Of a DNA stretch of 64,000 nucleotides, positions 19,874 through 54,671 are shown in pieces (the first letter of the stretch is position 1; each line of letters opens with the position of its first letter). A program made the position numbers and the translations under genes. The notes beneath the pieces were generated by a model. That model made no database searches. It had not been told where the DNA came from and saw nothing but the letters and a program-made list of their open reading frames with translations. This DNA comes from Desulfovibrio sp. TomC (lineage in GTDB: Bacteria; Desulfobacterota; Desulfovibrionia; Desulfovibrionales; Desulfovibrionaceae): NCBI RefSeq assembly GCF_000801335.2, contig NZ_JSEH01000010.1:62001-126000 (forward strand). Reading direction: 5' to 3'.

Positions 19874-19913
19874 GCCTCCGGCGGCCAAAGGGCTGAGCCC
19901 TTTGGAATCCCAC
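19874..19913 (+). repeat. Hairpin repeat copy 2, 3' of the YitT gene
   Basis: It begins 25 bases after the stop codon, behind a purine-rich leader (AAAAGTAAAGATAAAGCC). The constant GCCTCCGGCGGCC block runs into the stem CCAAAGGGCT (19885-19894)-G-AGCCCTTTGG (19896-19905) and then AATCCC. The stem sequence differs from the GGGGGCC stem of other copies but pairs perfectly. Confidence 0.8.
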
Positions 19914-19973
19914 AAGGGTTAAGGGGGTGGACGTTATTTGGGTCCGGCTGTGCAGCTCTGCCGCCACTCCCCA

Positions 19974-20012
19974 TTTGGCGGTCCAAGGGCTTGAAGCCCT
20001 TGGACCGCCAAA
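19974..20012. repeat. Perfect 39-bp hairpin
   Basis: Arms of 19 bp (19974-19992 and 19994-20012; left arm TTTGGCGGTCCAAGGGCTT) pair perfectly around a single base. There is no T run on either side, so a simple terminator is unlikely. It lies between two copies of the dispersed hairpin element and shares the AAGGGCTT core with them. Confidence 0.85.
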
Positions 20013-20066
20013 GCAGCGCCGCTTCCCGGTCCGCAACCGTCCGGAGTTTGCCCGCCACCGGCACGA

Positions 20067-20160
20067 CCCCTTGAAAACTTCCCCGCATCGCAGGGGTCCG
20101 GGGGGATCATCCCCCCGGTGGGGTCCGGGGCAAAGCCCCGGCCGCCGGAGGCATCTTCCT
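20067..20160 (-). repeat. Hairpin repeat copy 3, 3' of the CMD gene
   Basis: Read on the minus strand after the CMD gene stop: a purine-rich leader, GATGCCTCCGGCGGCC, a GGGGC-TTT-GCCCC stem, GGACCCC, a GGGGGGATGATCCCCCC hairpin, then GGACCCC and AAGTTTTCAAGGGG. Other copies end with the same TTTTCAAGGGG-like tail (for example 46801-46812). Confidence 0.8.
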
Positions 20161-20205
20161 CTCCTCTCTTCCTCTATTCCTCTATTCCTCTCTTCCTCTA
20201 TTCCC
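20151..20205. repeat. TCTTCCTCTATTCC microsatellite-like tract
   Basis: Imperfect tandem units of TCTTCCTC and TATTCCTC run from the repeat element to the CMD stop codon. On the CMD coding strand this is GAGGAAGAG/GAGGAATAG, an expanded form of the purine leader found before other copies of the hairpin element. Confidence 0.7.
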
Positions 20206-21070
20206 CCATCTCGGCCAGGGCGTCGCGTGTGGCCGAGATGCCGTTTAGGGCTGCCGGAAAACCGGCGTAGGCCGCCATCTGGATCATTATTTCGACGATC
20301 TGCTCCCGGGTGAGCCCGACCACCCGGGCCGCCTTGACGTGGACCTTGAGCTGCGGGGCCATCGTGCCCCGGGCCGTGGCCGCCGCAATCATGGCGATTT
20401 CCTTCTGGCCGGGGCTCAGGATGGTGCGGGAAATCACGTCGCCGTAGGAGAAATCCAGGAGGAAATCGGCCATATCCGGGGCAATGCCGGCCATGGAGGC
20501 CACCACCTTCTCGCCGGCGTCCCGGCTGGTGGCGGCCAGGGTCGCCAGCCCCCGTGTCCGGCGGTCGGTTTCTCCGTCCGGGTGGGCCGGCCGCTGCCTG
20601 ACCGTCACGCCCTTGGCCGCAAACACTTCCCGACACACGGCCAGGGCATTGAGTCCGGCCGGGAAGCCGGCAAAGACCGTGGTCACGTAGATGATCTCCA
20701 CGATGGCCTCGGGGGAAAGCCCGGTGGCCAGACCGGCCTCGACGTGAAAGGCCAGCTGGGGCGCGGCATTGCCCAGGGCGGTCAGGGCGGCGATGGTCGC
20801 GGTCTGGCGCTCGGCCGGGGTCAGCCCGGGACGGGTGAAAATATCGCCGTAGCCAAATTCCACGACAAAGCGGCCCAGGTCCGGGGCAATGTCGGCCAGG
20901 GCATCCTGTACGGCCTGGGCTTTTTGCGGGGCCAGGGCGGCCAGGGCGGCATAGCCGCGTTCGTAGCGTTCGTTTGCGGTCATCGTGCTGTCTCCATTCG
21001 CAAGGGTGGGGCCGAGGGCCAATCCCAGGGCCAGGAGTATGCGCCAACGGCAAAAAAATGTCTTGATCAT
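20198..21070 (-). CDS. Exported tandem carboxymuconolactone-decarboxylase-domain protein
   Basis: A signal peptide (ILLALGLALGPTLANGDSTM) precedes two homologous all-helical CMD domains, about residues 45-155 and 185-285. Each shows the pattern PDLGRFVVEFGYGDIFTRPG or PDMADFLLDFSYGDVISRTI, then QTATIAALTALGNAAPQLAFH or KEIAMIAAATARGTMAPQLK, and EIIYVTTVFAGFPAGLNAL or EIMIQMAAYAGFPAALNGI. There is no CxxC, so it is not an AhpD-type peroxidase. CMD proteins of this type act on lactones or unidentified small molecules; export of a fused pair is unusual. GGAGG precedes the ATG. It is divergent from a LysR regulator gene with palindromic sites between them. Confidence 0.88.
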   Translation of the reverse strand: MIKTFFCRWRILLALGLALGPTLANGDSTMTANERYERGYAALAALAPQKAQAVQDALADIAPDLGRFVVEFGYGDIFTRPGLTPAERQTATIAALTALGNAAPQLAFHVEAGLATGLSPEAIVEIIYVTTVFAGFPAGLNALAVCREVFAAKGVTVRQRPAHPDGETDRRTRGLATLAATSRDAGEKVVASMAGIAPDMADFLLDFSYGDVISRTILSPGQKEIAMIAAATARGTMAPQLKVHVKAARVVGLTREQIVEIMIQMAAYAGFPAALNGISATRDALAEMGE

Positions 21071-21112
21071 GGACGCCTCCTGCTGTTTCCGGCTGCACCC
21101 TAGACCCGGAAA

Positions 21113-21165
21113 ATCAATATGTTAAATATCAATTTACATACTTATTGATATTTGAAAAATATCAA
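21113..21165. promoter_or_regulatory. LysR-type operator cluster between CMD gene and lysR
   Basis: A perfect palindrome, TTGATATTT (21145-21153) GAA AAATATCAA (21157-21165), lies 3 bases before the lysR start codon. The same arm AAATATCAA recurs at 21124-21132, exactly 33 bp (about three helical turns) away, and a partial TCAATAT lies at 21114. The block is strongly AT-rich inside GC-rich DNA. It matches the T-N11-A layout of LysR-family sites and probably serves both divergent genes, with autoregulation of lysR. Confidence 0.75.
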
Positions 21166-21168
21166 TCC

Positions 21169-22119
21169 ATGGAACTGCGGGATTTCGAGTGTTTTGTGGC
21201 TGTGGCCGAGGAACTGCATTTCGGGCGGGCGGCGGCCCGTCTGGCCATGTGCCAACCGCCGCTGAGTCAACGCATCAAAGCCCTGGAGGAGACGCTGGGG
21301 ACGCGGCTTTTGGCCCGCACCAGCCGCCGGGTGGCCCTGACGCCGGCCGGCGAAACTTTTCTGGGTCGGGCGCGGGCCGTGCTGGAGCTGGCCGGGGCGG
21401 CCGGCGACGAGGCCCGTCGGGTGGGATTGGGGCTGGCCGGGAAATTGACGGTGGGATTCGTCAACCCGGCCATGGACGCCTTTTTGGCCGCAGCCCTGGG
21501 GCAGTTTCGGGGGCAGGCCCCGGAGGTGGAACTGTCGCTTCGGGAGATGACCACCCGGGAGCAGGCCGAGGCCCTGGCCGGGGGGCGCATTGATGTGGGC
21601 TTTTGCCGCTCTGCCGGGCAGGAGCCGGCCGGAGCGGCCCTTACGGAGGTGTCCCGGGAGCCGTACATCCTGGCTCTGCCGGCCGGCCACCCCCTGGCCG
21701 GATACCGGCGGGTGTCTCTGGCCGCCCTGGACGGTCAGGCCTTGATCGTGCCGCCGCGCGCCGGGCTGCCGGCCTTGTCCCAGGCGCTTGGCGCTGCCTT
21801 TGCCGCGGCCGGAGCCCGGCCGGTTGCGGTGCAGGAGGCAGCCTCGAAATTCACCATGCTTGGGCTCGTGGCCGCCGGCGTGGGACTGGCCCTGGTCCCG
21901 GCCTCGGTTCGGGTATGGCAGCGGGCCGGGGTGGTCTGCCGGGATCTGGAGGCCGGGCTGCCCCCGGTCGTCCTGGCGGCGGCCCTGCCCCTGGATCGGG
22001 AACACGCCGCCGCAACGCGACTGGTGGAACTGGCCCGGCAGGCGGCCGGTTCCAGGCCCGCAGCCCGGGCCGGAGCGGTCAAAGCGACTGACGCTTGCGG
22101 GCAGCCTGCCACTGGATGA
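21169..22119 (+). CDS. LysR-family transcriptional regulator
   Basis: The N-terminal winged helix-turn-helix is intact: MELRDFECFVAVAEELHFGR, AAARLAMCQPPLSQRIKALE and RLLARTSRRVALTPAGETFL (to about residue 65). The substrate-binding domain (about 85-300) has the two-lobed pattern with VGFVNPAMDAFL, VGFCRSAGQE and LALPAGHPLAG. The ATG at 21169 lies 3 bases after an operator palindrome and lacks a clear ribosome site, so repressor binding could also hide the translation start region. The ligand is unknown. It probably controls the divergent exported CMD protein. The last 41 bases overlap the convergent DUF1786 gene. Confidence 0.92.
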   Translation: MELRDFECFVAVAEELHFGRAAARLAMCQPPLSQRIKALEETLGTRLLARTSRRVALTPAGETFLGRARAVLELAGAAGDEARRVGLGLAGKLTVGFVNPAMDAFLAAALGQFRGQAPEVELSLREMTTREQAEALAGGRIDVGFCRSAGQEPAGAALTEVSREPYILALPAGHPLAGYRRVSLAALDGQALIVPPRAGLPALSQALGAAFAAAGARPVAVQEAASKFTMLGLVAAGVGLALVPASVRVWQRAGVVCRDLEAGLPPVVLAAALPLDREHAAATRLVELARQAAGSRPAARAGAVKATDACGQPATG

Positions 22120-23128
22120 GCCCCAGGCAGGCGGTGAGCATCATATCGCCGCCGGGGCTGGGGAAATCGACGTCAAAGCCGGTAAACGAGGCCCGTTTGG
22201 GGCCAATCACCGAGGTATACGGGAAAATCCCGGCCTCAGCCGGCAGCTCGAGGGTCAGGCAGCCGTGCCCGCCGCTGGCAAAAACCTCGGCGTTGGTCAG
22301 GTCGCCCCGGCGAAACCGCTCCAGGTCGGCCCAGAGGGTGTCGGGGTCGAGCATGCCGGTGTGGTGCTCGTAGATGCCGTGGATGCGGCGGCGATGGACC
22401 AGGGCGGCCACGGTGTGGCTGTTGCCGGCATTGACGCACATGACGCCGGACACGTCGGTCAGGGCGGCGATGGCCGGATCGGCCAGCATCCCGAGGACGG
22501 CGGCGGCAGCGGAATCGGCCACCGGCCCGCCGCCGATGGAGTCCTGCAACACGGCCAGCCGGGTCAGTTCCGACGGGGGCGTGGCGTAGACCAGGGCTTC
22601 TGGGCGGCCGCCGCTCTCCCGCAAAAACCGCTCCCAGAGCCTGAAGCGGCCCTCGCGGCTGCTTTTACCGGGATGCAGGCCATGATCCTGGGCGCAGGCC
22701 ATGACCATATCCGGCTCGGGCAGGCCGGCCGCGCCGAGAAAGGCCCGCCAATAGCCGGGATCGTAGTCGGCCAGCGCCACGGGCACGTGCCCGGCCGGGC
22801 GCTCGCGGGTAATGACCACGCCTGTTGTGGCCACCAGCCGTTCGGGATCGTCAGTCAGGGCCCAGACCGCGTCGGGATGGGCGGCCAGGGGCAGGCCGGC
22901 CTTGAGATGCGCCCGGTAGGCCTTGAAAAACCCGCCGCCCATGTTGCGTCCGCACAGGTAGACGGAGCGGCCGGCGGCAGTCAGCGCGGCCAATCGCGCC
23001 CCCACCTGCCGCGCCGGGGCGGGCAGCACGAATTTGGGGCAGTTCTCCGGTTCGAGATCCGGAAAATGATAGAGCACATCCTGGGTGCCGGAACCGATGT
23101 CCAGACACAACACGCGGCGCTGCGGCAT
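22079..23128 (-). CDS. DUF1786-family protein (ASKHA-like fold)
   Basis: The protein starts PQRRVLCLDIGSGTQDVLYH, the DIGSGTQD phosphate-binding motif of DUF1786, which resembles the sugar kinase/actin fold. Further family features are LCGRNMGGGFFKA, ACAQDHGLHPGKSSREGRFR, MCVNAGNSHTVAALV and EHHTGMLDPDTLWADLERFR. The old database name, putative pyruvate formate-lyase activating enzyme, is not supported: the cysteines seen do not form a CxxxCxxC radical SAM motif. The start at 23128 has AAGGAGG 7 bases upstream. It lies 70 bases downstream of the CBS-hybrid kinase on the same strand and overlaps lysR by 41 bases at its 3' end. Biochemical role unknown. Confidence 0.85.
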   Translation of the reverse strand: MPQRRVLCLDIGSGTQDVLYHFPDLEPENCPKFVLPAPARQVGARLAALTAAGRSVYLCGRNMGGGFFKAYRAHLKAGLPLAAHPDAVWALTDDPERLVATTGVVITRERPAGHVPVALADYDPGYWRAFLGAAGLPEPDMVMACAQDHGLHPGKSSREGRFRLWERFLRESGGRPEALVYATPPSELTRLAVLQDSIGGGPVADSAAAAVLGMLADPAIAALTDVSGVMCVNAGNSHTVAALVHRRRIHGIYEHHTGMLDPDTLWADLERFRRGDLTNAEVFASGGHGCLTLELPAEAGIFPYTSVIGPKRASFTGFDVDFPSPGGDMMLTACLGLIQWQAARKRQSL

Positions 23129-23198
23129 GACGCGGCCTCCTTGTCTTGGGAGCACCGTATCTACGCCACATACCGACCCGGCTCAAGGGGTTGCGGCC

Positions 23199-39654: not shown

Positions 39655-40536
39655 TCAGCCTTCGTTTAAATATTCCTGCAGCGAGTAGGCTAGGGCCGGC
39701 GCCAGCTTGTGGCGCAACTGGGCCACCTCGTCCATGAACCGGGCGTAGGCAGGGTTTTCCTGAAACGAAACATGCACTCCATCCACCACCGTGTCGTAGC
39801 GGCGTTGCATAAACAGTTCACGGTGCCCGTTTTCATACATGAATTTGTTGAGGAAAAAAGTTTCCAGGGAGGCCAGGCGGTTGCTTTTGCTGCGCAATGG
39901 ATCAACGTCGTCCGTATCATAGGGCGTGTGTTCATGGCGCACATACCGGTTGCACTTGTCGATATAGCCGGCCACAAGCCCGGCCAGTCCCAGGCGCAGG
40001 CCGAAATCGGAATCCTCTTCGCCGTAGATGCCGTAGTCCTCGCACCAGAACCCCAGCTGCTCATGGACCTCGCGACGCGACATCGAACAGGCCCCGCTGG
40101 TGAAGGAACGCTGGACAAAGGTGACGCCGTCCCCCCCGCGCGGATCGCACTCCTCGGGCGTCCCCGGCCAGATGTGAAATCCCACCGAACCGATCTGCGG
40201 ACACCGCGTCAAGGCCTGCATGAGCACATCGGCCCAGGCCGGGTCCTCGATGAGGATGTCGTTGTCCAGACGCACGAAAAACGGCTCCCGGGACACGGAC
40301 AAGGCAAAATTGTAGCCGCAGGCCACGCCCATGTTGCGATCGAACAGATACAGGTCGTCGATAACGCCCTTGCGGCGCAGATGCAGCAGATAATCCCGGG
40401 TGTCGTCCCGGCTGGCGTTGTCCACCACGGTCAGGCGGTAGGCCGCCCGGGTGCGTTCCCGGATGGTCTCCAGACAGCGGATGGTGGACGGCAGCCGGTT
40501 GTAGGTGACAACGGCGATATGGACCTGTTGCGGCAT
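39655..40536 (-). CDS. Glycosyltransferase family 2, copy A
   Basis: The 293-aa GT-A enzyme starts MPQQVHIAVVTYNRLPSTIR and shows RLTVVDNASRDDTRDYLL, GVACGYNFALSVSREPFFVR, the metal-binding RLDNDILIEDP, and acceptor-side motifs GACSMSRREVHEQLGFWCED and GEEDSDFGLRL. It is collinear with copy B at 41012 over its whole length, more than half identical by eye. The two flank queD in one operon (gaps 23 and 56 bases). The sugar donor and acceptor are unknown. Confidence 0.9.
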   Translation of the reverse strand: MPQQVHIAVVTYNRLPSTIRCLETIRERTRAAYRLTVVDNASRDDTRDYLLHLRRKGVIDDLYLFDRNMGVACGYNFALSVSREPFFVRLDNDILIEDPAWADVLMQALTRCPQIGSVGFHIWPGTPEECDPRGGDGVTFVQRSFTSGACSMSRREVHEQLGFWCEDYGIYGEEDSDFGLRLGLAGLVAGYIDKCNRYVRHEHTPYDTDDVDPLRSKSNRLASLETFFLNKFMYENGHRELFMQRRYDTVVDGVHVSFQENPAYARFMDEVAQLRHKLAPALAYSLQEYLNEG

Positions 40537-40559
40537 GGCGTTCTCGTGTTTCCCCGACC

Positions 40560-40955
40560 CTAATATTCCATATAGGTCGCCTTGCTGGCCTCTTTCTCCG
40601 ACACCGACACGCTGACCAGCCGCACCGGTTCGCCGGTAATGGCCGCCTCAAGGCGGCGGTAGATATGCCGGGCCAGATTCTCCGACGACGGGTTTTCCAG
40701 TGAAAATGCCGGCAGATCGTTTAAGTGCCGGTGATCCAGTTCGCCCAGAATCTGGCGCAACCGGCCGCGCAGCACCTTGAAATCGACCAGATATTCCACC
40801 TTGGGGTCAAGGCGTTCCCCCTCGACCACAGCCTCGACGCCAAAGTTGTGGCCGTGCAGATTTTCGCACGGCCCTTCATAGCCCCGCAGACAATGCGAGG
40901 CGCAAAAACCCTCGGTGACCGTCAACCGCCAGCGACCCTTGCGCTGTTCCGTCAT
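40560..40955 (-). CDS. queD: 6-carboxytetrahydropterin synthase QueD
   Basis: This enzyme converts dihydroneopterin triphosphate to 6-carboxytetrahydropterin on the route to queuosine. Zinc ligands His21 (FCASHCL), His34 and His36 (ENLHGHNF), catalytic Cys30, and the Asp74-His75 pair in ELDHRHLND are present, with a catalytic Glu near the end (SVSEKEASKATY). The 131-aa length is normal. It is oddly placed between two duplicated glycosyltransferases; no queC, queE or queF is visible in the window. Confidence 0.93.
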   Translation of the reverse strand: MTEQRKGRWRLTVTEGFCASHCLRGYEGPCENLHGHNFGVEAVVEGERLDPKVEYLVDFKVLRGRLRQILGELDHRHLNDLPAFSLENPSSENLARHIYRRLEAAITGEPVRLVSVSVSEKEASKATYMEY

Positions 40956-41011
40956 GTCCGTGCCTCCGGCGGCCAGGGGGACGCTGCCGCTCCCGGATAC
41001 TGCGCCGTTTC

Positions 41012-41899
41012 TCAGCGTTGTTTGTAATACTGCTCCAAATCAGCGGCCAGGACCGGTTCCATTTTCCGGCCAAGCTTTACGACCTCTTCCATGTAGCGGG
41101 CATACTCCGGATTTTCGGCAAAGGTCACGTTGAGGCCGTCAACCCGGGCATCATATTTCCGATGCATAAAAAGATCGCGCAACCCGTTTTTGTACATGAA
41201 CTTATTGAGTAAAAACAGTCGCAGCGTCGCAACGCGATTCTTGTTGTTGCGAAGCGGTCCGACGTCGTCCGTTTCATACGGCGTGTGCTCATGCTGGATA
41301 TACCTGCCGCGTTTGTCGATATACCCGGCGATAAACCCGGCCTGATGCAGACGAAAGCCGAAATCGGCGTCCTCTTCGCCGTAGAGGCCGTAATCCTCGC
41401 ACCAAAAGCCCAACCGCTCATGGACATCGCGCCGGGACATTGAGCAGGCCCCGGTCGTAAAGCTCCTGGGCACAAAGACGACGCAATCGCGCAAGGCGGC
41501 AATCGTATCTTCCGGGCAATTGGCCCAGACATGAAAGCCCACGGTTCCGGTCTCGGGGCGCGTCGTCAGAGCCTCCATCAACACATTGGCCCAGGATTTG
41601 TCCTGGATGATGATGTCGTTGTCCAATCTGACAAAAAAAGGCTCTTTTGAAATCGACAAGGCGAAATTATAGCCGCAGGCCACACCCATGTTCTTTTCGA
41701 ACAAATACAAATCATCAATAATTTTTTTATTATACAACCGCAGCAGATAGGCGACTGTTTCCTGTTTGCTGCCGTTGTCGACAACGGTCAGCCGAAAATC
41801 CGTATCCGTCTTGGCCACGACGGATTCTATGCACTGTATGGTCGATTCCAGTCTGTTGTACGTCACGATGGCTATGTGCAGTCTGCGGCCCATCGGCAC
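41012..41899 (-). CDS. Glycosyltransferase family 2, copy B
   Basis: The 295-aa paralogue of copy A shares every motif: LHIAIVTYNRLESTIQCIES, RLTVVDNGSKQETVAYLLRL, NMGVACGYNFALSISKEPFF, RLDNDIIIQDK, TTGACSMSRRDVHERLGFWC and EHTPYETDDVGPLR. Its coding DNA is noticeably richer in A and T than copy A (for example around 41690-41740), suggesting relaxed codon use or a different history. It is the first gene of a three-gene run with queD and copy A. Confidence 0.9.
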   Translation of the reverse strand: MPMGRRLHIAIVTYNRLESTIQCIESVVAKTDTDFRLTVVDNGSKQETVAYLLRLYNKKIIDDLYLFEKNMGVACGYNFALSISKEPFFVRLDNDIIIQDKSWANVLMEALTTRPETGTVGFHVWANCPEDTIAALRDCVVFVPRSFTTGACSMSRRDVHERLGFWCEDYGLYGEEDADFGFRLHQAGFIAGYIDKRGRYIQHEHTPYETDDVGPLRNNKNRVATLRLFLLNKFMYKNGLRDLFMHRKYDARVDGLNVTFAENPEYARYMEEVVKLGRKMEPVLAADLEQYYKQR

Positions 41900-41934
41900 C
41901 CCTCCGCAATCATTCCCGCCGTGCGCCTCCGGCG

Positions 41935-42088
41935 GCCAGGAGAGGCTCTGCCGGGGGGATGCATCCCCCCCGGACCCCCTGGATGGGGCGGGTGTTCTTA
42001 TTGACCCAACACAGAACTCTTCGCCCCACAGATGGGGGGTCCGGGGGCTTCAAGCCCCCGGCGGGGCCTGGGGCAGCGCCCCAGTCTT
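41935..42088 (-). repeat. Hairpin repeat copy 4 (double), 3' of dnaE
   Basis: Read on the minus strand after dnaE: a purine-rich leader of about 50 bases, a TGGGGCGCTGCCCCA hairpin, a CCGGGGGCTT-G-AAGCCCCCGG hairpin and GGACCCCCC, then a GGGGGGATGCATCCCCCC hairpin and GGCCGCCGGAGGC. The right-hand part is in the opposite orientation to the left, so this looks like two elements head to head. It lies between dnaE and the GT2 operon. Confidence 0.8.
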
Positions 42089-42138
42089 CGCCTTCGTCTT
42101 CGCGTTCGCCTTTACACCACCTTCGCCTTTCCACTTCC

Positions 42139-45739: not shown

Positions 45740-45817
45740 AACCCATGAAAAACTTCTCCCAATGGGGGGGTCCGGGGGCCTCAGGCCCCCGGCCGCCGGA
45801 GGCACTCTTCCTCTTCC
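45740..45817 (-). repeat. Hairpin repeat copy 5, 3' of the VOC gene
   Basis: On the minus strand, about 14 bases after the VOC stop: GGAAGAGGAAGAGTGCCTCC, GGCGGCC, the stem GGGGGCC-TGA-GGCCCCC, GGACCCCCCC, then an AAGTTTTTCATGGG tail. This is the most complete form, and copies 6 and 8 match its core. Confidence 0.85.
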
Positions 45818-45830
45818 CTTGCCCCCTCCC

Positions 45831-46280
45831 CTAATTCCAGCTTTGCAGCTCGATCACGTTGCCTTCGGGATCGCGCATATAGCGAAAGACCAGCCGTCCG
45901 ACGCCGGGCACGTCACGAGTGGCCAGCGCGCCAACAGCCGTGCCGCCGGCATCGAGCACGGCCTGGGACATCCCGGCCACGTCGTCCACGAGAAAGGCGA
46001 TATGGGAAAAGCCCGGCGTATCCGGGGCGATGTCGGGGTGTTCGGGACAGATGTCGTAGGAGAAGATTTCCAGCGTCGGGCCGGTGTCGCCATGGCCGGG
46101 CAGGCGCAGGTGGATGCCGGTCAGGTGGGAGTTGTCGATGCCGGTTGCGGCGTCAAGCCAGTCGCCGGACAGGTCGCGCTCCGGGGGCACGGGCTTGCAA
46201 TCAAAGAGACGGATATAGAACGCGGACAAGGCCCGCCAGTTGCGGGCGATCAGATTGGTATGGACGTAGCGAATGGCCAT
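45831..46280 (-). CDS. VOC-family (glyoxalase/bleomycin-resistance-like) protein
   Basis: The 149-aa protein has the paired beta-alpha-beta-beta-beta modules of the vicinal oxygen chelate fold: IRYVHTNLIARNWRALSAFY at the N terminus, TLEIFSYDICPEHPDIAPDT in the middle, GFSHIAFLVDDVAGMSQAVL, and RYMRDPEGNVIELQSWN at the end. His, Glu and His residues in those segments are candidate metal ligands. The substrate cannot be told. The start at 46280 has AAGGAG upstream (a TTG at 46289 is possible). It lies 20 bases after the DUF309 gene, probably in one operon. Confidence 0.88.
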   Translation of the reverse strand: MAIRYVHTNLIARNWRALSAFYIRLFDCKPVPPERDLSGDWLDAATGIDNSHLTGIHLRLPGHGDTGPTLEIFSYDICPEHPDIAPDTPGFSHIAFLVDDVAGMSQAVLDAGGTAVGALATRDVPGVGRLVFRYMRDPEGNVIELQSWN

Positions 46281-46300: not shown

Positions 46301-46678
46301 TTAGTCGGCCGTAAAGGCAATGTGCGGCACAAGCTGCGCCGGCAACGGCTCCCCCGGGGAAGCCGTCTCAAGCCAGGCCAGGACCGCCTGGGTCATGACC
46401 ACCAGCCCGGCCACATCCAGGCCTGCCGCACGCGGCACGAACCGTGTGAGATACCCCGTAGCCCGGAGAAGGAGCTTGCGGCAACCCCGGACATTGCCGT
46501 TGCCCAGATGATACAGCCCGGCCGCCACCTGGATCACCGCCTTGTACAGGTCGCGCTCGGGCGAGACATCGGACAGCCAGAAGGCTTCCAGGGTGTCGTG
46601 GCAGGCGAAAAACTCGCCGGCGTTAAATTCGGCCACGGCCTGGACCAAAGCCGGCGGCGCAAAGGAGCTGCTTGACAT
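46301..46678 (-). CDS. DUF309-family protein
   Basis: The 125-aa helical protein carries the DUF309 signature: FNAGEFFACHDTLEAFWLSD, ERDLYKAVIQVAAGLYHLGN and GCRKLLLRATGYLTRF. The conserved His, Glu and Trp are seen in CHDTLEAFW. Family function is unknown. The start at 46678 has GGAGGG upstream; the open frame continues 5' into the hairpin repeat but without a ribosome site. It is followed by the VOC gene. Confidence 0.85.
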   Translation of the reverse strand: MSSSSFAPPALVQAVAEFNAGEFFACHDTLEAFWLSDVSPERDLYKAVIQVAAGLYHLGNGNVRGCRKLLLRATGYLTRFVPRAAGLDVAGLVVMTQAVLAWLETASPGEPLPAQLVPHIAFTAD

Positions 46679-46735
46679 TTTTCGGTTCCCTCCGTCTTTT
46701 GGGCCGGCCTTGACGCTGTGAGCGTGCGAGGGGTG

Positions 46736-46812
46736 AGGAAGAGGAAGAGTGCCTCCGGCGGCCGGGGGCCTGAGGCCCCCGGACCCCCCAACGGGGGAAA
46801 TTTTCAAGGGGT
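46736..46812 (+). repeat. Hairpin repeat copy 6
   Basis: GGAAGAGGAAGAGTGCCTCC, GGCGGCC, the stem GGGGGCC-TGA-GGCCCCC, GGACCCCCC, then AATTTTCAAGGGG. It is almost the same as copy 5 but lies in a 5' region between divergent genes. Confidence 0.85.
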
Positions 46813-46899
46813 TTTTGACGCGGAACCACCGTTGCTGCGACGGCCAAAGGGCCTGAGAACCTTGAAAACCATAACTCGTTTCTCATAATTATAGAGGGT

Positions 46900-46950
46900 T
46901 TCCAAAGGGCACTGCCCTTTGGCCGCCGGAGGCATCTTCCTCTTCCCTCT
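46900..46950 (-). repeat. Hairpin repeat copy 7
   Basis: On the minus strand: GAAGAGGAAGATGCCTCCGG, CGGCC, the stem AAAGGGC-AGT-GCCCTTT, GG, then AAACCC. It is inverted relative to copy 6 and has the AAAGGGC stem type of copy 2. Confidence 0.8.
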
Positions 46951-47003
46951 TATTTCCCAAGCCGTACCGTACTTCTCATTCCAACTAACACAACGAGGAA
47001 ATC

Positions 47004-48197: not shown

Positions 48198-48290
48198 GAG
48201 AAAGGCGCAATCACGACTGTTGCTTCTTAATGAAGCACACCCGTGAGTCTCGAACGCAACACCCGGGTTTCCCCGACCCGTCCCGCCCGC

Positions 48291-48597: not shown

Positions 48598-50301
48598 ATG
48601 GCCCTTTTCGGACGCGACAAAAAGAAAGCCGACGCGGATGAGCCCGCCCAGGTCCAGGCGACGCCCAAGCGCCTTATTCCTGAAGACAATCTACCCGAGC
48701 TGACCAAGTTCTTCGATGCCATGCAGGAGCCTGTGGAGCTTGTGGTCTTCACCGATCCCCAGCAAAACGCCCCCTACAACAGTTTCATGGAATCACTTTG
48801 CCGGGAACTGTCGGAAATAACCCCCAAAATTACAGCCCGCTTTCTCGCCCTGGACAGCCCCGAAGCCAAACTCTACGGCGTGGACTTCTCCCCCACCCTG
48901 CTGCTGGCCCCGGACCGCTGCCAGATCCGCTATCTCGGCGCGCCCCTTGGCGAAGAGGCGCGCACGCTCATTGAGACCATCATGCGCCTGTCCCTGGGGA
49001 AAAGCGGACTGACCCAGATTTCCCGGCAACTGCTCCAGGAACTCGACGAGAAACGCCATGTCCAGGTGTTCGTCAATCCGTCGTGCCCCTACTGCCCGGG
49101 ACAGGTGGGCAACGCCTTTCGTTGCGCCGTGGAGCGCCCGGACCTCGTATCCGCCGTCTGCGTCGATTCCTCCCAGCATCAGGCCCTGGCCGAAAAGTAC
49201 CATGTGGGCAGCGTCCCCCACACCATCATTAATGAGACGTTTTCCACCCTGGGCCTGCTGCCTGAGGAACGCTTCGTGGTGGAATTGGTGACGCTTAAAA
49301 GCGCTGAAGAGCTCCTGGCCCAGCAGCGCGCCGCCGGCGTGGCCCCGGCCGACGGGCTGCCTGTGGTCGAACTGGACGTGGTGGTGGCCGGAGGCGGCCC
49401 GGCCGGGCTGACGGCCGCCATCTACGCCGCACGCAGCGGCATGAGCGCCGTTGTGCTGGAAAAAAGCGTCATCGGCGGCCAGGTGACCGTGACGCCGGTG
49501 GTCGAGAACTACCCGGGCTTTGCCAGTGTGCCGGGCAAACGGCTGATGGAAATGATCGCCGAACAGGCCCGCAGCTATGCCGAGATCCACGAAGGCGAGG
49601 GCATCGAGGAAGTCAAGGTGGGCAAGCATGTGGAGGTCTACACCGACAAGGCCGTGTATGTGGCCAAGGCGTTGATTCTGGCCACCGGGGCGGCCTGGCG
49701 CAAGCTCGGCACACCGGGCGAAGACCGCTATTTCGGTTTTGGCGTCAGCTATTGCTCCACCTGCGACGGCTATCTCTATCGGGGGAAAAAGGCCGTGGTG
49801 GTCGGCGGCGGCAACACGGCGCTGACCGACGCGCTGCATTTGAAAAACCTCGGCGTGGACGTGACGCTGATCCACCGCCGGCCGGAGTTTCGGGCCGAGC
49901 AGCATTTACAGGACGCCCTGGCCAAGGAGGGCATCCCCGCCATCCTCGGAACCACTGTGGCGGAGATTCTCGGCAGCGACACCCAGGTGACCGGCGTGCG
50001 CCTGCATGACGTGGCCGACGGCACCGAGCGGGAAATCCCGACCGATGCCGTGTTCGTGGCCATCGGCCTGACGCCCAACACGGCCATTGCCCAGGAACTG
50101 GGCCTGACGCTCGACGACCACGGCTACATCGTCACCGACCGGGGCAAACGCACCTCGATTCCGCGCATCTACGCCGCCGGCGACGTGACCGGCGGTTCCC
50201 AGCAGATCGTCAACGCCGTGGGCGACGGCTCCACAGCGGCGCTGTCGGCCTTCGAGGACACCACCAATCCGTACTGGAAAAAGGGCAAAGCAGTCTCCTA
50301 A
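48598..50301 (+). CDS. Thioredoxin reductase fused to a glutaredoxin-like N-terminal region
   Basis: The AhpF-like layout in 567 aa is two thioredoxin-fold modules followed by a flavin reductase. The first module (about 30-135) lacks a redox cysteine pair; the second (about 150-235) has Cys163-Pro-Tyr-Cys166 in VFVNPSCPYCPGQVG. The reductase domain (from about 257) has VVVAGGGPAGLTAAIYAARS, the disulfide Cys386-Ser-Thr-Cys389-Asp, the NADPH motif AVVVGGGNTALTDALHL and IPRIYAAGDVTGGSQQIVNA. Electrons probably pass NADPH-FAD-CSTC-CPYC to a peroxiredoxin or another disulfide; Bcp is encoded at 51487 on the other strand. AAGGAG precedes the ATG. Confidence 0.92.
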   Translation: MALFGRDKKKADADEPAQVQATPKRLIPEDNLPELTKFFDAMQEPVELVVFTDPQQNAPYNSFMESLCRELSEITPKITARFLALDSPEAKLYGVDFSPTLLLAPDRCQIRYLGAPLGEEARTLIETIMRLSLGKSGLTQISRQLLQELDEKRHVQVFVNPSCPYCPGQVGNAFRCAVERPDLVSAVCVDSSQHQALAEKYHVGSVPHTIINETFSTLGLLPEERFVVELVTLKSAEELLAQQRAAGVAPADGLPVVELDVVVAGGGPAGLTAAIYAARSGMSAVVLEKSVIGGQVTVTPVVENYPGFASVPGKRLMEMIAEQARSYAEIHEGEGIEEVKVGKHVEVYTDKAVYVAKALILATGAAWRKLGTPGEDRYFGFGVSYCSTCDGYLYRGKKAVVVGGGNTALTDALHLKNLGVDVTLIHRRPEFRAEQHLQDALAKEGIPAILGTTVAEILGSDTQVTGVRLHDVADGTEREIPTDAVFVAIGLTPNTAIAQELGLTLDDHGYIVTDRGKRTSIPRIYAAGDVTGGSQQIVNAVGDGSTAALSAFEDTTNPYWKKGKAVS

Positions 50302-50307
50302 CCGCCC

Positions 50308-50345
50308 GGCCAGCCCGTCACAAACGCGGCTGGCCGCTTTATTGT
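50308..50345 (+). terminator. Terminator of the thioredoxin reductase fusion gene
   Basis: GGCCAGCC (50308-50315) pairs with GGCTGGCC (50328-50335), followed by GCTTTATTGT. The T run is weak. It starts 7 bases after the stop codon. Confidence 0.55.
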
Positions 50346-50412
50346 ATCCTTGAACCTCTGGCCCTCGTACCCGGGAGCAGACACCCCAACTGCCGCGCAC
50401 CGTCGCGGCAAC

Positions 50413-50490
50413 GCCGCCCCCCCCACCCGGTTGGGGGGTCCGGGGGCCTCAGGCCCCCGGCCGCCGGAGGCGCTTCACCTCTTCATCTTC
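50413..50490 (-). repeat. Hairpin repeat copy 8, abutting the radical SAM gene stop
   Basis: On the minus strand the radical SAM gene stop is followed within about 20 bases by a GAAGATGAAGAGG leader, GCGCCTCCGGCGGCC, the stem GGGGGCC-TGA-GGCCCCC, GGACCCCCC and AACCGGG. Confidence 0.85.
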
Positions 50491-51479
50491 TATATGGATG
50501 CGTAGAATTCAGGCGGCGACAGCTCGTTGGACTCAAACCAGCCCCGCTCGGACAGATGGCGGCGAATGTCCTGGCACAGCTCGCACTTATTGACGTAGCC
50601 TTCGGTCCTGGCCTCGTAGCCTTCCAGGGCGGCGGCGTAGTCGTACAAGCCGGCAATGCCGGATTCGGCCAGGGTGGTCAGGATGGGATAGCGTTCGGAA
50701 TCCAGCGGCGCACCCAGGTCGTCGACCCGGAAGGCCAGCCCGGAACACAGGCCGGGCACGTAGTCGCCGTACAGATCCATGTGAAAATGGCTGGTATCGG
50801 ACAGCTCCCGCAGACAATCCGGCGAGGCCTTGGCCAGGATCGTTTCCACCGGCTGCCGGCCAAGCGCCGGGGCAAAGAGGTCAAAGGCCCGCCCGCCCAG
50901 GTGAATCCAGGTGCGGTCCAGGATTGCCGCCGGATAGCCCGGACCGAAATGGTGGAGGTAGGCAGCAAAGGGATGTGTCGTCTCGGGATCGAACTGCTTG
51001 AGATCAGCCAGAAAATGTTCCTGCCAGGGAAAAACCGCCACGCCGGCGGCCCGGGCGGCGGCCATGACGCCAAGGGTCTTGGCCAGCGGCACGAAGCCGT
51101 TGAGCATGGGGCTCATCGACACCAACAGCGACCCCAGGCCCATGGAGCGCAGTTCGGTTAAGAGCTCCACGGCCTCGTCGGCGTCGTCGTACCACGCCCC
51201 GCTCGTCTCCACATATTCAATGCCCATGCCTGTCTCGGCTGCGGCCGCCAGCACCCCGGCCAGCCCCAGAGGATCGGCCAGCGGTTCGCCGCCGCCCACA
51301 TGCATGGTCACGGCCCCAAGCGAGAGGGCCTTGGCAAAGCAGGCCGCAGCCGTCCCCTGGTCGATATAGTCCGGCGAGCGCCCCGGCCCGCCGCGATAGA
51401 GACAGTGGGGACAGGCGCTTTGGCACTGGTAGGTGGCGATCAGCCCCCCGGAGCGCAGACTGGTGACACAGAGGGCCAT
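50490..51479 (-). CDS. Radical SAM protein
   Basis: The [4Fe-4S] S-adenosylmethionine motif is Cys19-QSA-Cys23-PH-Cys26 in ATYQCQSACPHCLYRG, followed by the SAM-binding VTMHVGGGEPLADP. The C terminus has a second Cys set (NKCELCQDI) that could hold an auxiliary cluster. The 329-aa length and the lack of a known accessory domain leave the reaction open. Translation starts 7 bases after the bcp stop, with AGGA overlapping that stop codon. It ends the operon lytic transglycosylase-bcp-radical SAM. Confidence 0.87.
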   Translation of the reverse strand: MALCVTSLRSGGLIATYQCQSACPHCLYRGGPGRSPDYIDQGTAAACFAKALSLGAVTMHVGGGEPLADPLGLAGVLAAAAETGMGIEYVETSGAWYDDADEAVELLTELRSMGLGSLLVSMSPMLNGFVPLAKTLGVMAAARAAGVAVFPWQEHFLADLKQFDPETTHPFAAYLHHFGPGYPAAILDRTWIHLGGRAFDLFAPALGRQPVETILAKASPDCLRELSDTSHFHMDLYGDYVPGLCSGLAFRVDDLGAPLDSERYPILTTLAESGIAGLYDYAAALEGYEARTEGYVNKCELCQDIRRHLSERGWFESNELSPPEFYASI

Positions 51480-51486
51480 GGGCGTC

Positions 51487-51975
51487 CTAGTTTCCAGCCA
51501 GCCCGGTGAGCGCGGCCAGCACGGCTTCAGCGTGGCCGGCAGCCTTGGCCACTTGCGGCCAGGCTTTGCGTACGACGCCCTTGGGATCGATAAGAAAGGT
51601 GGAGCGCACCGTGCCCACGCAGTCCTTGCCGCAGACCTTTTTGGCCCGCCAGGCCCCGTAGGCGGCCAGGGTCGTGGTGTCCGGGTCGGACAAGAGCGTG
51701 ACGGTCAATTCGTGCTTGTCGATAAATTTGCGGTGGCTGGCCGGCTTGTCGCGGCTTATGCCGACGACATCGGCCCCCAGGGCCAGGAACCGGGGCAGGA
51801 GTCCGGAAAATTCCACAGCCTCGGTGGTGCAGCCGCTGGTGGAATCCTTGGGATAAAAATAGAGCACCAGCCACCGGCCGGAAAAATCGGCCAGGGCGTG
51901 GTTGTGCCCGTCCGCGTCGGACAAGGAGAAATCCGGGGCCGGGCTGCCTTCGCCGGGCCAGGGGGTCTCGCTCAT
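51487..51975 (-). CDS. bcp: Thiol peroxidase, Bcp/PrxQ type
   Basis: This peroxiredoxin reduces hydroperoxides. Peroxidatic Cys49 sits in the motif FYPKDSTSGCTTEAVEFSGL; the next usual resolving position, five residues on, is Glu, so Cys115 or Cys119 (KKVCGKDC) may resolve. Other family features are VVGISRDKPASHRKF, LLSDPDTTTLAAYGAW and STFLIDPKGVVRKAW. The length is 162 aa. The ATG overlaps the stop of the lytic transglycosylase gene by 4 bases (ATGA). Confidence 0.95.
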   Translation of the reverse strand: MSETPWPGEGSPAPDFSLSDADGHNHALADFSGRWLVLYFYPKDSTSGCTTEAVEFSGLLPRFLALGADVVGISRDKPASHRKFIDKHELTVTLLSDPDTTTLAAYGAWRAKKVCGKDCVGTVRSTFLIDPKGVVRKAWPQVAKAAGHAEAVLAALTGLAGN

Positions 51976-52706
51976 GGCTTCTCCAGTTTGGCCGGAGGCA
52001 AGTCCCCGGCGGCCAGCTTCTGGTGGATCACACCGATCCCCTCGTCGGGATAGCGTAGACGCAACATGAAATAGCGGTCAACGACCTTTAAGACATAATC
52101 CTTGGTTTCGTCATAGGGCGGCACGCCGCCGTGTTTGGCCACGGCTCCGGGACCGGCGTTGTAGGCGGCCAGGGCCATGACTTCGGTCTGAAACCGGTCG
52201 AGCATAGCGCGCAGATACCGGGTGCCGGCGGCAATGTTGCGCTCGGGATCAAACGGCTCGGTCAGGCCCAGCAGCTTCTGGGTGTCGGGCATGATCTGCA
52301 TGAGCCCCTGGGCTCCCTTGGGCGAGACGGCACAAGGATTAAAGCGCGATTCCTGCTCGATCAGGGCATAGACCAGCCGGGGGTCCAGACCGTTTTTCTT
52401 GCTGTGGCTGTTGACCAGACCGAGGAGCTTGGCATCGACGATCACTTCCGGATACTTGCAGCTCGTGGCCTTTTTCTCGTTAAACTTGTGCCCGGCCTCC
52501 CGCAACATTTTGTCGCGCCGGCCGGCCGCCACCGGGTCGGGCAGGATCAGGCCGTGAATTTCCGTGGCCCCAGGCGAAGGGGCGCTGACCATCTTCGGAC
52601 CGGCCGCAGCCTGAGCCGGAGGCAACGGACAAAGACCGGTCGCGGCCAAAAACAGCATGGGCAACAGAACCCGAAAAAACAGGCGAGGCATCGCTTGGCG
52701 CATCAT
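51972..52706 (-). CDS. Lytic transglycosylase (Slt/MltC-like SLT domain)
   Basis: A signal peptide (LPMLFLAATGLCPLPPAQAA) leads into a periplasmic enzyme that cleaves peptidoglycan. The SLT domain (about 95-235) is clear: YALIEQESRFNPCAVSPKGA with catalytic Glu119, QGLMQIMPDTQKLLGL, NIAAGTRYLRAMLDRF and LAAYNAGPGAVAKHGG. A Cys (LCPLPP) in the signal region is not in a good lipobox. The length is 244 aa. It is the first gene of the three-gene operon with bcp and the radical SAM gene and lies 42 bases after the HerA-like gene, which may be co-transcribed. Confidence 0.93.
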   Translation of the reverse strand: MMRQAMPRLFFRVLLPMLFLAATGLCPLPPAQAAAGPKMVSAPSPGATEIHGLILPDPVAAGRRDKMLREAGHKFNEKKATSCKYPEVIVDAKLLGLVNSHSKKNGLDPRLVYALIEQESRFNPCAVSPKGAQGLMQIMPDTQKLLGLTEPFDPERNIAAGTRYLRAMLDRFQTEVMALAAYNAGPGAVAKHGGVPPYDETKDYVLKVVDRYFMLRLRYPDEGIGVIHQKLAAGDLPPAKLEKP

Positions 52707-52748
52707 CCGTTCCCTACCCCCTCAAGCGGGCTTTTACAAGGAAGGCGC

Positions 52749-54332
52749 TCAGCGGATCTGCCGACGCCACCGGTCCAGGGTGTCGGCGATAAAGTTCTTA
52801 TCGTTACACGGCCCGCTCCAGACCTCTGAGAACCGGGCGGTATCGCTTCTTGGCCGCTCATCGGCGGACAGTTCCCGCAATCGGATGCGCATGGGCACAG
52901 GCACGCCCTCGCCCACCACCACCGCTTCCTGGGTACGCAGGGCCGGGAGGGCGGCCAGCAGGCCGGCGGCATTTTCCGGCATGGCCCGACGCACGAACAG
53001 CTGGTCCTGCTCGTTGCTCATGCGCAGGGAAAAAAGCGTATTGACCTGGGACAGCACGGTTTCCGAGATTTCCGAGGGCCGCTGGGTGATAAGCCCCAGC
53101 GACACCCCATACTTGCGGCCTTCCTTGGCAATGCGCGAGAGCGCCCGCCGGGTGGGACCGAAGGCCACGGCGGAATCGCGCGGCACATAGCGGTGGGCCT
53201 CCTCGCACACGAGCAAAATGGGGACGCCGGTGCCCCGCTTGGTCCACAGGGCGAAATCGAAGATGAGCCGGCACAGGACCGAGACCACCACATCCACGAT
53301 TTCCGACGGCACGCCGGCCAGATTGAAAATCGTCATGGGCCGTCCATCGGCGGGCAGGCGCAGGTAGCGGGCCAGCACCTCGCCCATGACGTCTTCCACG
53401 GTGAGCTGGCCGAACATGAAGGAAAACCGGCGGTCGCGGCGCAGGGTATCGATGCGGCTCATCAGGCGCATATAGGGGATGGAACTTTCGGGCTTGTCGA
53501 GTTTGCCCATGCCGATCTTGAGCAGCTCCGTCACCCGGGCCAGCCGGTAGGGCACCGGCGTGTCGATGGTCAGCCCGGCCTCGTCGCCCCCGCTGCTGCC
53601 GCGCAGATATTCGGCCTTGGCCGCCATGACGCAATCCTTGAGAATATTGGCCTCGACCTCGCGGTAGGGCTGGCCCGTGCTGCAAAAAACCTGCACCATC
53701 TCCTCGAAATCGAGCAGCCAGTAGGGCAGGACCAAGGTGTCGGGGGTGACCATCTCGGCCATGTCGCCAAAGGCGGCGGCGTATTCGTCGTGGGGATCGA
53801 GGAGCACGATGTGGCCGTTTCGGTGGGCGGTCAGAATGGAACGCAACAGCACGGCCACGGTGCAGGACTTGCCCGAACCGGTGGTGCCGAGCACGGCGAA
53901 ATGTTTGCCGAGAAAATCGTCCACGATGACATAGGCCGGCACGTCCGAGTCCTGATGCAAGGCCCCGACCACCACGCTGGATTTGCTCGGCTTGGCGTAG
54001 ATGCGGGCCAGATCGGCGCTGTCGGTCCGGCACACCGCCGCCCCTAGGCACGGGTTGTGGGAAACGCCGCGCTGGAAGGTGAACGCGGCGTCCTCAGTGC
54101 CAAGGCTCTCGCCCAGAAGGGCCACCCGGGCCAAGTGCCGGTCGCCAGGGGTCACCGTTGCCGCCGGAGACGGGGTGAGAAGGGTCTGCACCAGCCCAAA
54201 GACCAGGGAGCGCGACGAAGGGATGACCACCATGTCGCCCACCGTCACTGTGGCAAAAACGTCGTCCCCAAGGACCACGGTCAATTCCGCGCCTTCTACC
54301 GCCGCCACATAGCCGAGTTCCTGTCGTTCCAT
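52749..54332 (-). CDS. HerA-like (DUF87) hexameric ATPase
   Basis: The 527-aa protein has an N-terminal HAS-barrel-like region (ELGYVAAVEGAELTVVLGDD, VTVGDMVVIPSSRSLVFGLV), Walker A in HFAVLGTTGSGKSCTVAVLL, VLLDPHDEYAAAF, Walker B in VPILLVCEEAHRYVPRD, an arginine-finger region (ALSRIAKEGRKYGVSLGLIT), and QRPSEISETVLSQVNTLFSL. Relatives pump DNA, often with a NurA nuclease; no NurA is encoded nearby. The start at 54332 has AAGGAAATC upstream. It precedes the lytic transglycosylase gene on the same strand. Its biological role is open. Confidence 0.87.
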   Translation of the reverse strand: MERQELGYVAAVEGAELTVVLGDDVFATVTVGDMVVIPSSRSLVFGLVQTLLTPSPAATVTPGDRHLARVALLGESLGTEDAAFTFQRGVSHNPCLGAAVCRTDSADLARIYAKPSKSSVVVGALHQDSDVPAYVIVDDFLGKHFAVLGTTGSGKSCTVAVLLRSILTAHRNGHIVLLDPHDEYAAAFGDMAEMVTPDTLVLPYWLLDFEEMVQVFCSTGQPYREVEANILKDCVMAAKAEYLRGSSGGDEAGLTIDTPVPYRLARVTELLKIGMGKLDKPESSIPYMRLMSRIDTLRRDRRFSFMFGQLTVEDVMGEVLARYLRLPADGRPMTIFNLAGVPSEIVDVVVSVLCRLIFDFALWTKRGTGVPILLVCEEAHRYVPRDSAVAFGPTRRALSRIAKEGRKYGVSLGLITQRPSEISETVLSQVNTLFSLRMSNEQDQLFVRRAMPENAAGLLAALPALRTQEAVVVGEGVPVPMRIRLRELSADERPRSDTARFSEVWSGPCNDKNFIADTLDRWRRQIR

Positions 54333-54671
54333 GATTTCCTTCCCTGCCCGGCCTGACGCCCGGACTGCCGGGACGTCCGGGTCCTGGATGTATCCCCGCA
54401 CTGTGACAAGACCGCTTCATCCCGGCCAAAGGCTGTGTCGCCATCCTGGCCCAGGCGCACCAGACGTTCCCGTCACGCGCGCGCGCCGGGTGTCCCGGTC
54501 CGCAGCCGACCAGCTTGCCCGCCAACGCCAGGAACCCCTTGAAAACTTTTCCTGGTTGGGGGAGCAGGCCCCGCCCCGCCCGCGATATCTTCCTGCCCCC
54601 CAGCCAGGGAGGGTCCGGGAGGGGGTTACCCCCTCCCGGCCGCCGGAGGCATTCCCCCCTCTTCTCTCACC
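54333..54671. other. Intergenic region, half of it repeat
   Basis: The left half (54333-54525) shows no gene, promoter or terminator I can support. The right half is repeat copy 9, which ends at the stop codon of the hybrid kinase. Confidence 0.5.
54534..54670 (-). repeat. Hairpin repeat copy 9, abutting the hybrid kinase stop
   Basis: On the minus strand, after the kinase stop: a purine leader (GAGAGAAGAGGGGGG), AATGCCTCCGGCGGCC, the stem GGGAGGGGGT/ACCCCCTCCC, GGACCCTCCC, a longer spacer, then AAAAGTTTTCAAGGGG. The stem is a third sequence type with full pairing. Confidence 0.8.

Follow-up and report, generated by a model that had tools for sequence, protein, structure and literature searches.

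The window, a 64,000-nt stretch of the Desulfovibrio sp. TomC genome, contains ten exact copies of the core GCCTCCGGCGGCC, and 32 matches against 14.3 expected when up to two mismatches are allowed. The core belongs to a module that runs from a purine leader through the core to a hairpin, which is perfect in most copies and has purines in its 5′ arm, followed by GGACCCC or GGAATCCC and a decaying tail; a minority of copies terminate in a common motif and a second core. Purine-rich leader and perfect hairpin accompany seven of the ten exact cores. The exceptions lie at 2876, 40962 and 41925, with leaders of 64%, 28% and 28% purine, respectively. The copies, variants and isolated cores in the window are:

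19849..19905, plus strand: element 3′ of a YitT-family gene (stop ends at 19848); leader 19849-19873, core 19874-19886, hairpin 19885-19905, CCAAAGGGC-TGA-GCCCTTTGG
20093..20197, minus strand: element 3′ of the CMD gene (stop at 20198), inverted partner of the copy at 19874; leader 20153-20197, core 20140-20152, hairpin CCGGGGC-TTT-GCCCCGG followed by another, GGGGGGATGATCCCCCC
42027..42138, minus strand: core-less variant 3′ of dnaE; purine-rich leader, CTGGGGCGCTGCCCCAG hairpin, then CCGGGGGCTTGAAGCCCCCGGACCCCCC
45772..45830, minus strand: element 3′ of a VOC/glyoxalase gene (stop at 45831); leader 45804-45830, core 45791-45803, hairpin CCGGGGGCC-TGA-GGCCCCCGG
46726..46782, plus strand: element, half of an inverted pair; leader 46726-46750, core 46751-46763, hairpin CCGGGGGCC-TGA-GGCCCCCGG
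46902..46958, minus strand: element completing the inverted pair; leader at positions above 46933, core 46921-46933, hairpin CCAAAGGGC-AGT-GCCCTTTGG
50440..50489, minus strand: element 3′ of a radical-SAM-like gene (stop at 50490; named from a Pfam Radical_SAM match under the curated cut-off); leader 50472-50489, core 50459-50471, hairpin CCGGGGGCC-TGA-GGCCCCCGG
54615..54671, minus strand: element 3′ of a hybrid histidine kinase gene (stop at 54672); leader 54651-54671, core 54638-54650, hairpin CCGGGAGGGGG-TAA-CCCCCTCCCGG
41925..41937, plus strand: exact core lacking purine leader and perfect hairpin, antisense, upstream of a glycosyltransferase gene
40962..40974, plus strand: exact core lacking purine leader and perfect hairpin, antisense, between two minus-strand genes
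2876..2888, plus strand: exact core lacking a perfect hairpin, antisense, inside a called minus-strand gene (DUF6125), in its 5′ part

A sequence-only reading of the window had described at least eight copies, six of them close behind stop codons. All eight places named do hold the element or a variant, and five of the six stop-proximal copies have a core, at 25 nt (YitT), 45 nt (CMD), 27 nt (VOC), 18 nt (radical SAM) and 21 nt (hybrid kinase) from the stop. The sixth, that of dnaE, lies on the minus strand and lacks the core; the orthologous gene in genome G006 has this variant too, and the exact core nearby at 41925+ faces the opposite way. Placement after stop codons fails for 46751+ and 46921-, an inverted pair that sits between the divergently transcribed DUF309 (minus) and HI0933-like (plus) genes. 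At gathering score, Rfam 15 has no match in the window; near 46600-47000, two matches (MIR2118 and PyrR207) fall far under their cut-offs.

Genome-wide, the exact core occurs 277 times in 5.07 Mb, about one copy per 18 kb, compared with a single match for the reversed control pattern. All 14 genomes of the genus examined carry 117-363 exact cores, and a covariance model gives at least 150 matches in the TomC genome and finds the element in 28 of the 44 genera sampled within Desulfovibrionaceae. Outside the family, 24 genomes from five other families of the order hold 0-4 exact cores each. The core is intergenic in 74 of 79 exact copies and is sharply defined, with 13 intergenic one-mismatch cores against these 79, seven of the 13 differing at position 13. 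In the consensus, the stem is flanked by GGCGG on its 5′ side and GGA or GGAA on its 3′ side, and the three-base loop is TGA, TCA or TAA in 168 of 216 cases. The leader is 87% purine at 43 element ends and 52% at 59 orthologous ends without the element, indicating that it arrives with the element. Searches of open-access literature found no published description of the element among the matches listed, and the core string occurred in open-access full text in seven papers, all unrelated by title.

The element is closely tied to gene ends. In an 820-kb survey, 59 copies have a same-strand gene on their 5′ side, and 54 of these start 8-46 nt past the stop codon, where 2000 random draws give 9.8 on average and 22 at most. 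Among gaps of at least 60 nt, the element is found in 31 of 76 convergent, 31 of 237 tandem and 1 of 91 divergent gaps, and sense copies outnumber antisense copies 25 to 10 in tandem gaps. Twenty evenly spaced stretches of G008 replicate this pattern, with 17 of 19 copies at 8-46 nt (null mean 5.2) and none in 32 divergent gaps; in another genus the placement bias is less strong. The proposal of a dispersed structured element at gene ends staked itself on such bias and on pairing above chance, and it survives, since strong stop-codon and orientation bias is present in both the 820 kb and G008.

Stem variation with preserved pairing had been read as compensatory change and hence as selection on RNA structure. 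The first part stands: in 290 distinct copies, some of them from loci retrieved via the pattern GAAGA plus core, the hairpin is perfect in 247, compared with 0.64 on average and at most 3 after shuffling, and 36 different 5′ arms are parsed. The second part does not follow, because hairpins are swapped between close relatives and template switching is possible, so that compensatory change alone is no proof of RNA selection. A functional RNA structure, either an mRNA stabiliser or a protein site, whose stems drift by compensatory point changes under base-pairing selection would suit these hairpins and the strict gene-end placement, yet we consider it unlikely. Mispairs run in the wrong direction for RNA (17 A.C/C.A versus 6 G.T/T.G); G-U intermediates are not in excess, and this wobble test shows no sign of RNA-pairing selection. 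An alignment of 31 copies, chosen for perfect 9-bp stems and 3-nt loops, gives a covariation score of 0.523 versus 0.198 when shuffled and two-sided changes in 5 of 9 pairs, which is not above the shuffled 3.8; these pair counts are of limited value, since 100% pairing and the absence of one-sided changes follow from the selection. RNA folding of three copies gives z-scores of -0.77 (no better than shuffles), -2.84 and -1.98.

The comparison of close relatives also argues against stepwise drift. At their gene ends the element is mostly retained while the hairpin often comes from another subfamily, and hairpin and tail mostly switch as one between close orthologues. Site sharing drops to 0.25-0.30 where protein identity is below 90%. 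Template switching, as outlined in PMC8794818, can yield perfect stems and two-sided stem changes in a single DNA event. In this element the hairpin often changes together with its tail, which makes template switching at most one route.

Whole units provide another. Longer units, a minority, mostly measure 134-164 bp; they begin at the core and end with a motif near CTTGACGGGAACCACCGTTGC plus another core. Of 284 copies, 43 share this 3′ motif, compared with 0 for the reversed control and 3 for the reverse complement. At one gene end of Desulfovibrio sp. DV, a 151-bp unit is flanked by two TCCGGCGGCC copies, and at the orthologous TomC end the second stem lies directly at the core. The two ends differ by exactly this unit, positioned at the core, and this is the only ortholog pair with a clean full-unit difference; it may also be a loss in TomC instead of a gain in DV. 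The 119-nt tail of the DV unit has paralogues of 97%, 90% and 88% identity in the DV genome, the latter two in tandem, and its best TomC match is 89% over 46 nt. No two TomC tails among 108 sampled copies are at least 90% alike beyond 61 nt, so recent copying is evident in the sister genome and not in TomC. At the counterpart of the site of a second recent unit (C104 of G114), TomC has other DNA. Different hairpins at the same gene end, together with the unit difference at the core, trace part of the covariation to whole-unit exchange.

The 3′-UTR function and REP-like nature suggested for the element remain the best leads, although two specific forms of them, a plain intrinsic terminator and a RAYT-driven REP, are not supported. 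TTTT occurs 20-60 nt past the core in 30 of 108 copies versus 164 of 918 background windows, a modest excess, and 78 of the 108 have no T-run by a test looser than the definition of a terminator. An unusual terminator that replaces canonical intrinsic ones would explain why canonical terminators within 120 nt are found at 4 of 56 element ends versus 52 of 223 others (p 0.005), and why species carry at the PyrRedox gene end either a terminator-like hairpin with a T-run or the element. As a window of 120-200 nt can miss terminators displaced downstream, the count was redone over whole gaps, which leaves a deficit only in convergent gaps (3/25 with the element versus 22/57, p 0.02) and none in tandem gaps (6/23 versus 31/93). 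In two ortholog pairs (L117/C4 and L198/C5), moreover, both species have a terminator-like hairpin and the element is located ahead of it, after the stop; a third pair (L200/C4) is less clear. Intrinsic termination as a general function is thereby weakened, and we regard a replacement terminator as distinctly improbable.

REPs and BIMEs, as presented in PMC3733652 and PMC2817692, are palindromes tagged with GTAG or CGTC; the GTAG types come with RAYT transposases and CGTC repeats are reported without a dedicated transposase. The element shares with them short palindromes in more than 100 copies per genome (277 cores here), a mainly extragenic location, stems that vary between families and, perhaps, partly inverted pairing. 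It differs in having no GTAG/CGTC tag at the palindrome end, a 13-nt GC-rich core, a purine leader, longer units anchored at the core and an orientation tied to the stop codon. Mobilisation by a RAYT is rejected on the distribution of the Y1_Tnp domain: the single TomC match is interrupted by a stop, and none was found in 6 of the 14 genus genomes (two of these six being 69% and 89% complete) despite 121-363 exact cores, the copy-richest genome among them. Earlier work cited in PMC12306157 describes E. coli REPs that reduce translation when they lie 15 nt or less from the stop codon. The element likewise places a hairpin shortly past the stop, at a different range: its base (core distance plus 11) is at least 19 nt away in all 59 sense copies of TomC, and one of 19 in G008 is at 15 nt.

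A selfish REP- or MITE-like repeat with no host function, surviving at gene ends as insertions elsewhere do harm, would fit the recent unit paralogues in one genome, the inverted and tandem arrangements and the differing stems at the same gene end of close relatives. Neither the 8-46 nt spacing nor the tandem sense bias nor the strictly purine leader is predicted by survival in a safe haven alone, and we think this account rather unlikely. A tentative possibility of somewhat greater weight is a RAYT-independent class of mobile hairpin module that inserts at its own core, always in one orientation and behind stop codons, and builds ordered gene-end arrays, the newest unit adjoining the gene and the apparent covariation reflecting DNA unit exchange; if so, species would keep a 3′-UTR hairpin at a gene while wholly replacing its sequence.

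We lean towards a REP/BIME-like module of Desulfovibrionaceae that belongs to the 3′ untranslated parts of transcription units, spreads as units anchored at its own core and probably acts as an mRNA 3′ barrier. Where orthologues differ by whole units exactly at the core, another hairpin stands beside the stop with core and place unchanged. Recent paralogues suggest that the difference reflects a gain of units, presumably copied by some process, and loss between repeated cores could then finish the hairpin swap. Within the mRNA, purine leader and strong hairpin may act as a barrier, protecting or defining the 3′ end, which would explain why the module is tolerated or favoured at gene ends. Functional RNA structure is usually proved by covariation, and as that of these hairpins is partly traced to whole-unit exchange, the family is both a warning and a test case. 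Since a given gene end often has different hairpins in close relatives, the element looks like a fast-changing REP-like repeat in the gene tails of Solidesulfovibrio-type bacteria, without the expected transposase. This REP-like population at transcription-unit ends, with model matches in 28 of the 44 genera sampled, lacks the enzyme held responsible for GTAG-type REPs, and its strict stop-codon spacing is open to direct explanation by 3′-end mapping.

In REPINs, one motif stands in inverted orientation on either side of a short body. Some copies of the element are likewise paired, whereas most have no recognisable inverted partner and no matching RAYT was found. A partner within 400 nt, with up to two mismatches, accompanies 14 of 60 sense copies, little above the control pattern (11/79), and 8 of 14 antisense copies. 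In the one-contig genome G004, a replication-polar, KOPS-like motif was rejected, with no change point above permutations in 100 of 121 copies; all six pairs closer than 500 bp among 100 listed copies there run plus-then-minus. Tandem starts are seen at C3:178112, L082 and L221, where a core with a partial 5′ arm precedes a new leader and a whole element.

The element behind the stop codons is a real gene-end module of the REP/BIME-like kind. Its core, GCCTCCGGCGGCC, occurs exactly 10 times in the window and 277 times in the own genome (5.07 Mb in 84 contigs), against 1 occurrence of the reversed pattern. All 14 genomes of the genus, the own one included, hold 117–363 core copies each, and 24 genomes from five other families of the order hold 0–4. 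Named matches to the element, among 80 of 120 stretches listed, are mostly Solidesulfovibrio or Desulfovibrio sp., and a covariance model finds matches in at least 47 of 79 genomes and at least 28 of the 44 family genera sampled, lower bounds from a survey that scored at most 68 candidates per genome. In the metagenome-assembled contigs L095, L113, L144 and L169, matches lie about 50 bases or less from the stretch or contig end; short-read assemblies may break at these repeats.

The structure described in the sequence-only reading was seen correctly, and all eight places it noted carry an element or a variant. The core is near-invariant (79 exact vs 13 intergenic one-mismatch copies), with the mismatch at position 13, inside the stem, in 7 of the 13. 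Purines make up 81% of the leader vs 50% at other gene ends; among orthologues, they make up 87% at 43 element ends vs 52% at 59 element-less ends. Because the latter are only 52% purine, the leader arrives with the element, its letters not fixed; the 7 of 59 element-less ends with at least 75% purine are core-less or partly deleted variants on a similar leader-hairpin plan. Perfect pairing of at least 7 bp, including the terminal CC of the core, is found in 247 of 290 distinct copies (shuffled mean 0.64). Parsing gives 71 different hairpins with 36 different 5′ arms, and the 5′ arm averages 92% purine. Leader and perfect hairpin accompany 7 of the 10 exact window copies and are missing at 2876, 40962 and 41925. 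The hairpin is followed by GGACCCC or GGAATCCC, then by a tail whose conservation decays over ~100 nt. Downstream, 43 of 284 copies carry a motif near CTTGACGGGAACCACCGTTGCTCCGG (up to 7 mismatches), against 0 for the reversed pattern and 3 for the reverse complement; in the three commonest stem classes, 26 of 35 such motifs lie 134–164 nt from the core start. Of 281 copies, 24 have a second core-like string on their 3′ side, two or more of these strings probably being chance matches. A further form, which may be a sister class, runs from purine leader through a small hairpin (GCGGGCTCTGCCCGC or CTGGGGCGCTGCCCCAG type) to the usual hairpin and GGACCCC:

42027-42138, minus strand: core-less 5′ module (also at fetched loci L071, L080, L081 and L114)

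At L221 (G104, another genus), L082 (G013) and G000:C3:178112-178161 in the own genome, the core and a partial 5′ arm run into a second purine-rich leader with its own complete element, an arrangement that would fit a new copy starting within the old hairpin.

A purpose-written gene caller was run on the window and 38 further stretches, 820,232 bases in all (the stretches of C3 and C6 picked for containing copies), and agreed with Pfam in the contested window frames tested. Intergenic DNA holds 74 of the 79 exact copies. Where the 5′ neighbour of a copy is a gene ending on its own strand and the gap measures 60 nt or more, 54 of 59 copies begin 8–46 nt past the stop, vs a mean of 9.8 and a maximum of 22 under uniform placement in the same gaps. 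Copies occupy 31 of 76 convergent, 31 of 237 tandem and 1 of 91 divergent gaps; those in tandem gaps are 25 sense vs 10 antisense (p 0.017), and of 104 tandem gaps of 60–150 nt, with barely room for the element, 3 contain it. Sampling G008, from the same genus, at 20 evenly spaced stretches gave 17 of 19 sense copies of an 11-mer core at 8–46 nt, 3 antisense copies, and no copy in any of 32 divergent gaps. The bias is weaker in a small sample from G104: 9 sense and 5 antisense copies, 1 of 38 divergent gaps, and 5 of 9 sense copies at 8–46 nt (null mean 1.6, maximum 6). Within the window, the claimed proximity to stop codons holds for YitT (25 nt), CMD (45), VOC (27), radical SAM (18) and the hybrid kinase (21), and for dnaE the element is present as a core-less variant; the copies at 46751 and 46921 sit between genes whose divergent arrangement Pfam supports, not behind stop codons. 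The excess of inverted pairs is weak relative to the control pattern. Some core pairs in G022, another genus, run minus-then-plus 46–49 bp apart (e.g. C2:71015 and C2:71064), the reverse of the plus-then-minus pairs of the own genus.

The inference from covariation to selection for an RNA structure, drawn in the sequence-only reading, is not secure. In 31 copies selected for perfect 9-bp stems, and thus completely paired by construction, two-sided changes affect 5 of 9 pairs with a covariation score of 0.523 vs 0.198 shuffled, and the number of such pairs is not above shuffles (5 vs 3.8). Without selection, 320 copies with the 11-mer core divide into 254 perfect ones, 21 with a single mispair, 10 with two and 35 lacking such a stem; the 41 mispairs comprise 17 A.C/C.A vs 6 G.T/T.G (p 0.035), a ratio opposite to that predicted by selection on RNA pairing. 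RNA folding of three copies gave z-scores of -2.84, -0.77 and -1.98. Mobilisation by a RAYT, the Y1_Tnp transposase held responsible for GTAG-type REPs, was rejected: the sole match in the own genome has an internal stop, and Y1_Tnp matches are absent from G002 (69% complete), G004, G007 (89% complete), G009, G010 and G012, which carry 121–363 copies. Replichore polarity was likewise rejected as a driver. Compared with REPs and BIMEs, the element is unusual in its near-invariant core, purine leader, stop-tied orientation and exchange of units, and further in that no RAYT was found for it.

This exchange is seen at orthologous gene ends. Where proteins are 90–100% alike, the element is present in both members of 26 pairs and on one side only in 10, many of these loci having been fetched for holding an element; stems are not identical in 23 of the 26, which are non-independent (~12 gene families, one genome counted twice through L078 and L142). 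Taken family by family, the stem is of a different subfamily in 6, shows a few letter changes in 4, and is unchanged or altered in the loop alone in 2. Presence was compared at loci chosen via the window dnaE and kinase, or via C4, C5 and the window of the own genome, rather than via the element. The probability of sharing it is 0.88 for proteins at least 90% identical (11 pairs with the element on both sides, 3 with it on one; 1.7 shared pairs expected if independent), 0.30 at 80–90% (18 and 84; 11.5 expected) and 0.25 at 65–80% (9 and 53; 3.4 expected). Stem and tail mostly switch together: L071/L074 and L089/L093 have the same stem and near-identical tails, and L124/C3, L193/C6 and others differ in both. 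Exceptions are L108/C5, with a shared arm and another tail, and L198/C5, with an extra hairpin and a similar tail.

Behind the Desulfovibrio sp. DV (L117) orthologue of C4:213732-214757 (96% protein identity) come leader, core, AAAGGGC hairpin and a tail ending CTTGACAGGAACCGCCGTTG, then TTCCGGCGGCC and a GGGGGCC stem; in the own genome the GGGGGCC stem stands directly at the core. The 119-nt tail of this extra 151-bp unit has paralogues of 97%, 90%, 88% and 79% in DV, the 90% and 88% ones in tandem 152 bp apart, and its best match in the own genome is 89% over 46 nt. Because the DV paralogues are closer than anything in the own genome, the comparison speaks for a recent gain in DV, the alternative being loss in the own genome. 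In a second pair, L198 and C5:51896, the difference amounts to a 24-nt hairpin at this same position 3′ of the core. Hairpin swaps would then arise by adding sequence at the core and losing the stretch between repeated cores.

Earlier work cited in PMC12306157 has E. coli REPs reducing translation within 15 nt of the stop; the hairpin base of all 59 copies, in contrast, lies outside this zone, at least 19 nt past the stop. Nor is there a general U-tract, TTTT lying 20–60 nt 3′ of the core in 30 of 108 copies, a modest excess over a background of 164/918. Canonical terminators occur in 3 of 25 element-bearing convergent gaps vs 22 of 57 others; tandem gaps show no such deficit (6 of 23 with the element vs 31 of 93 without). 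In two ortholog pairs, and less clearly in a third, the stop is followed first by the element and then by a terminator-like hairpin, common to both species in the two clear pairs. The most economical role would be that of a 3′ barrier on the mRNA, a function reported for REPs of E. coli (Newbury et al. 1987, cited in PMC7509114).

The window holds other repeats. At 39655-41893, a pair of stretches 1357 bases apart, 68–75% identical over 200–300 nt, spans two minus-strand genes, of which the second has a glycosyltransferase family 2 domain. A called minus-strand gene contains a tandem repeat at 14288-14554 that steps by 18 and 21 bases.
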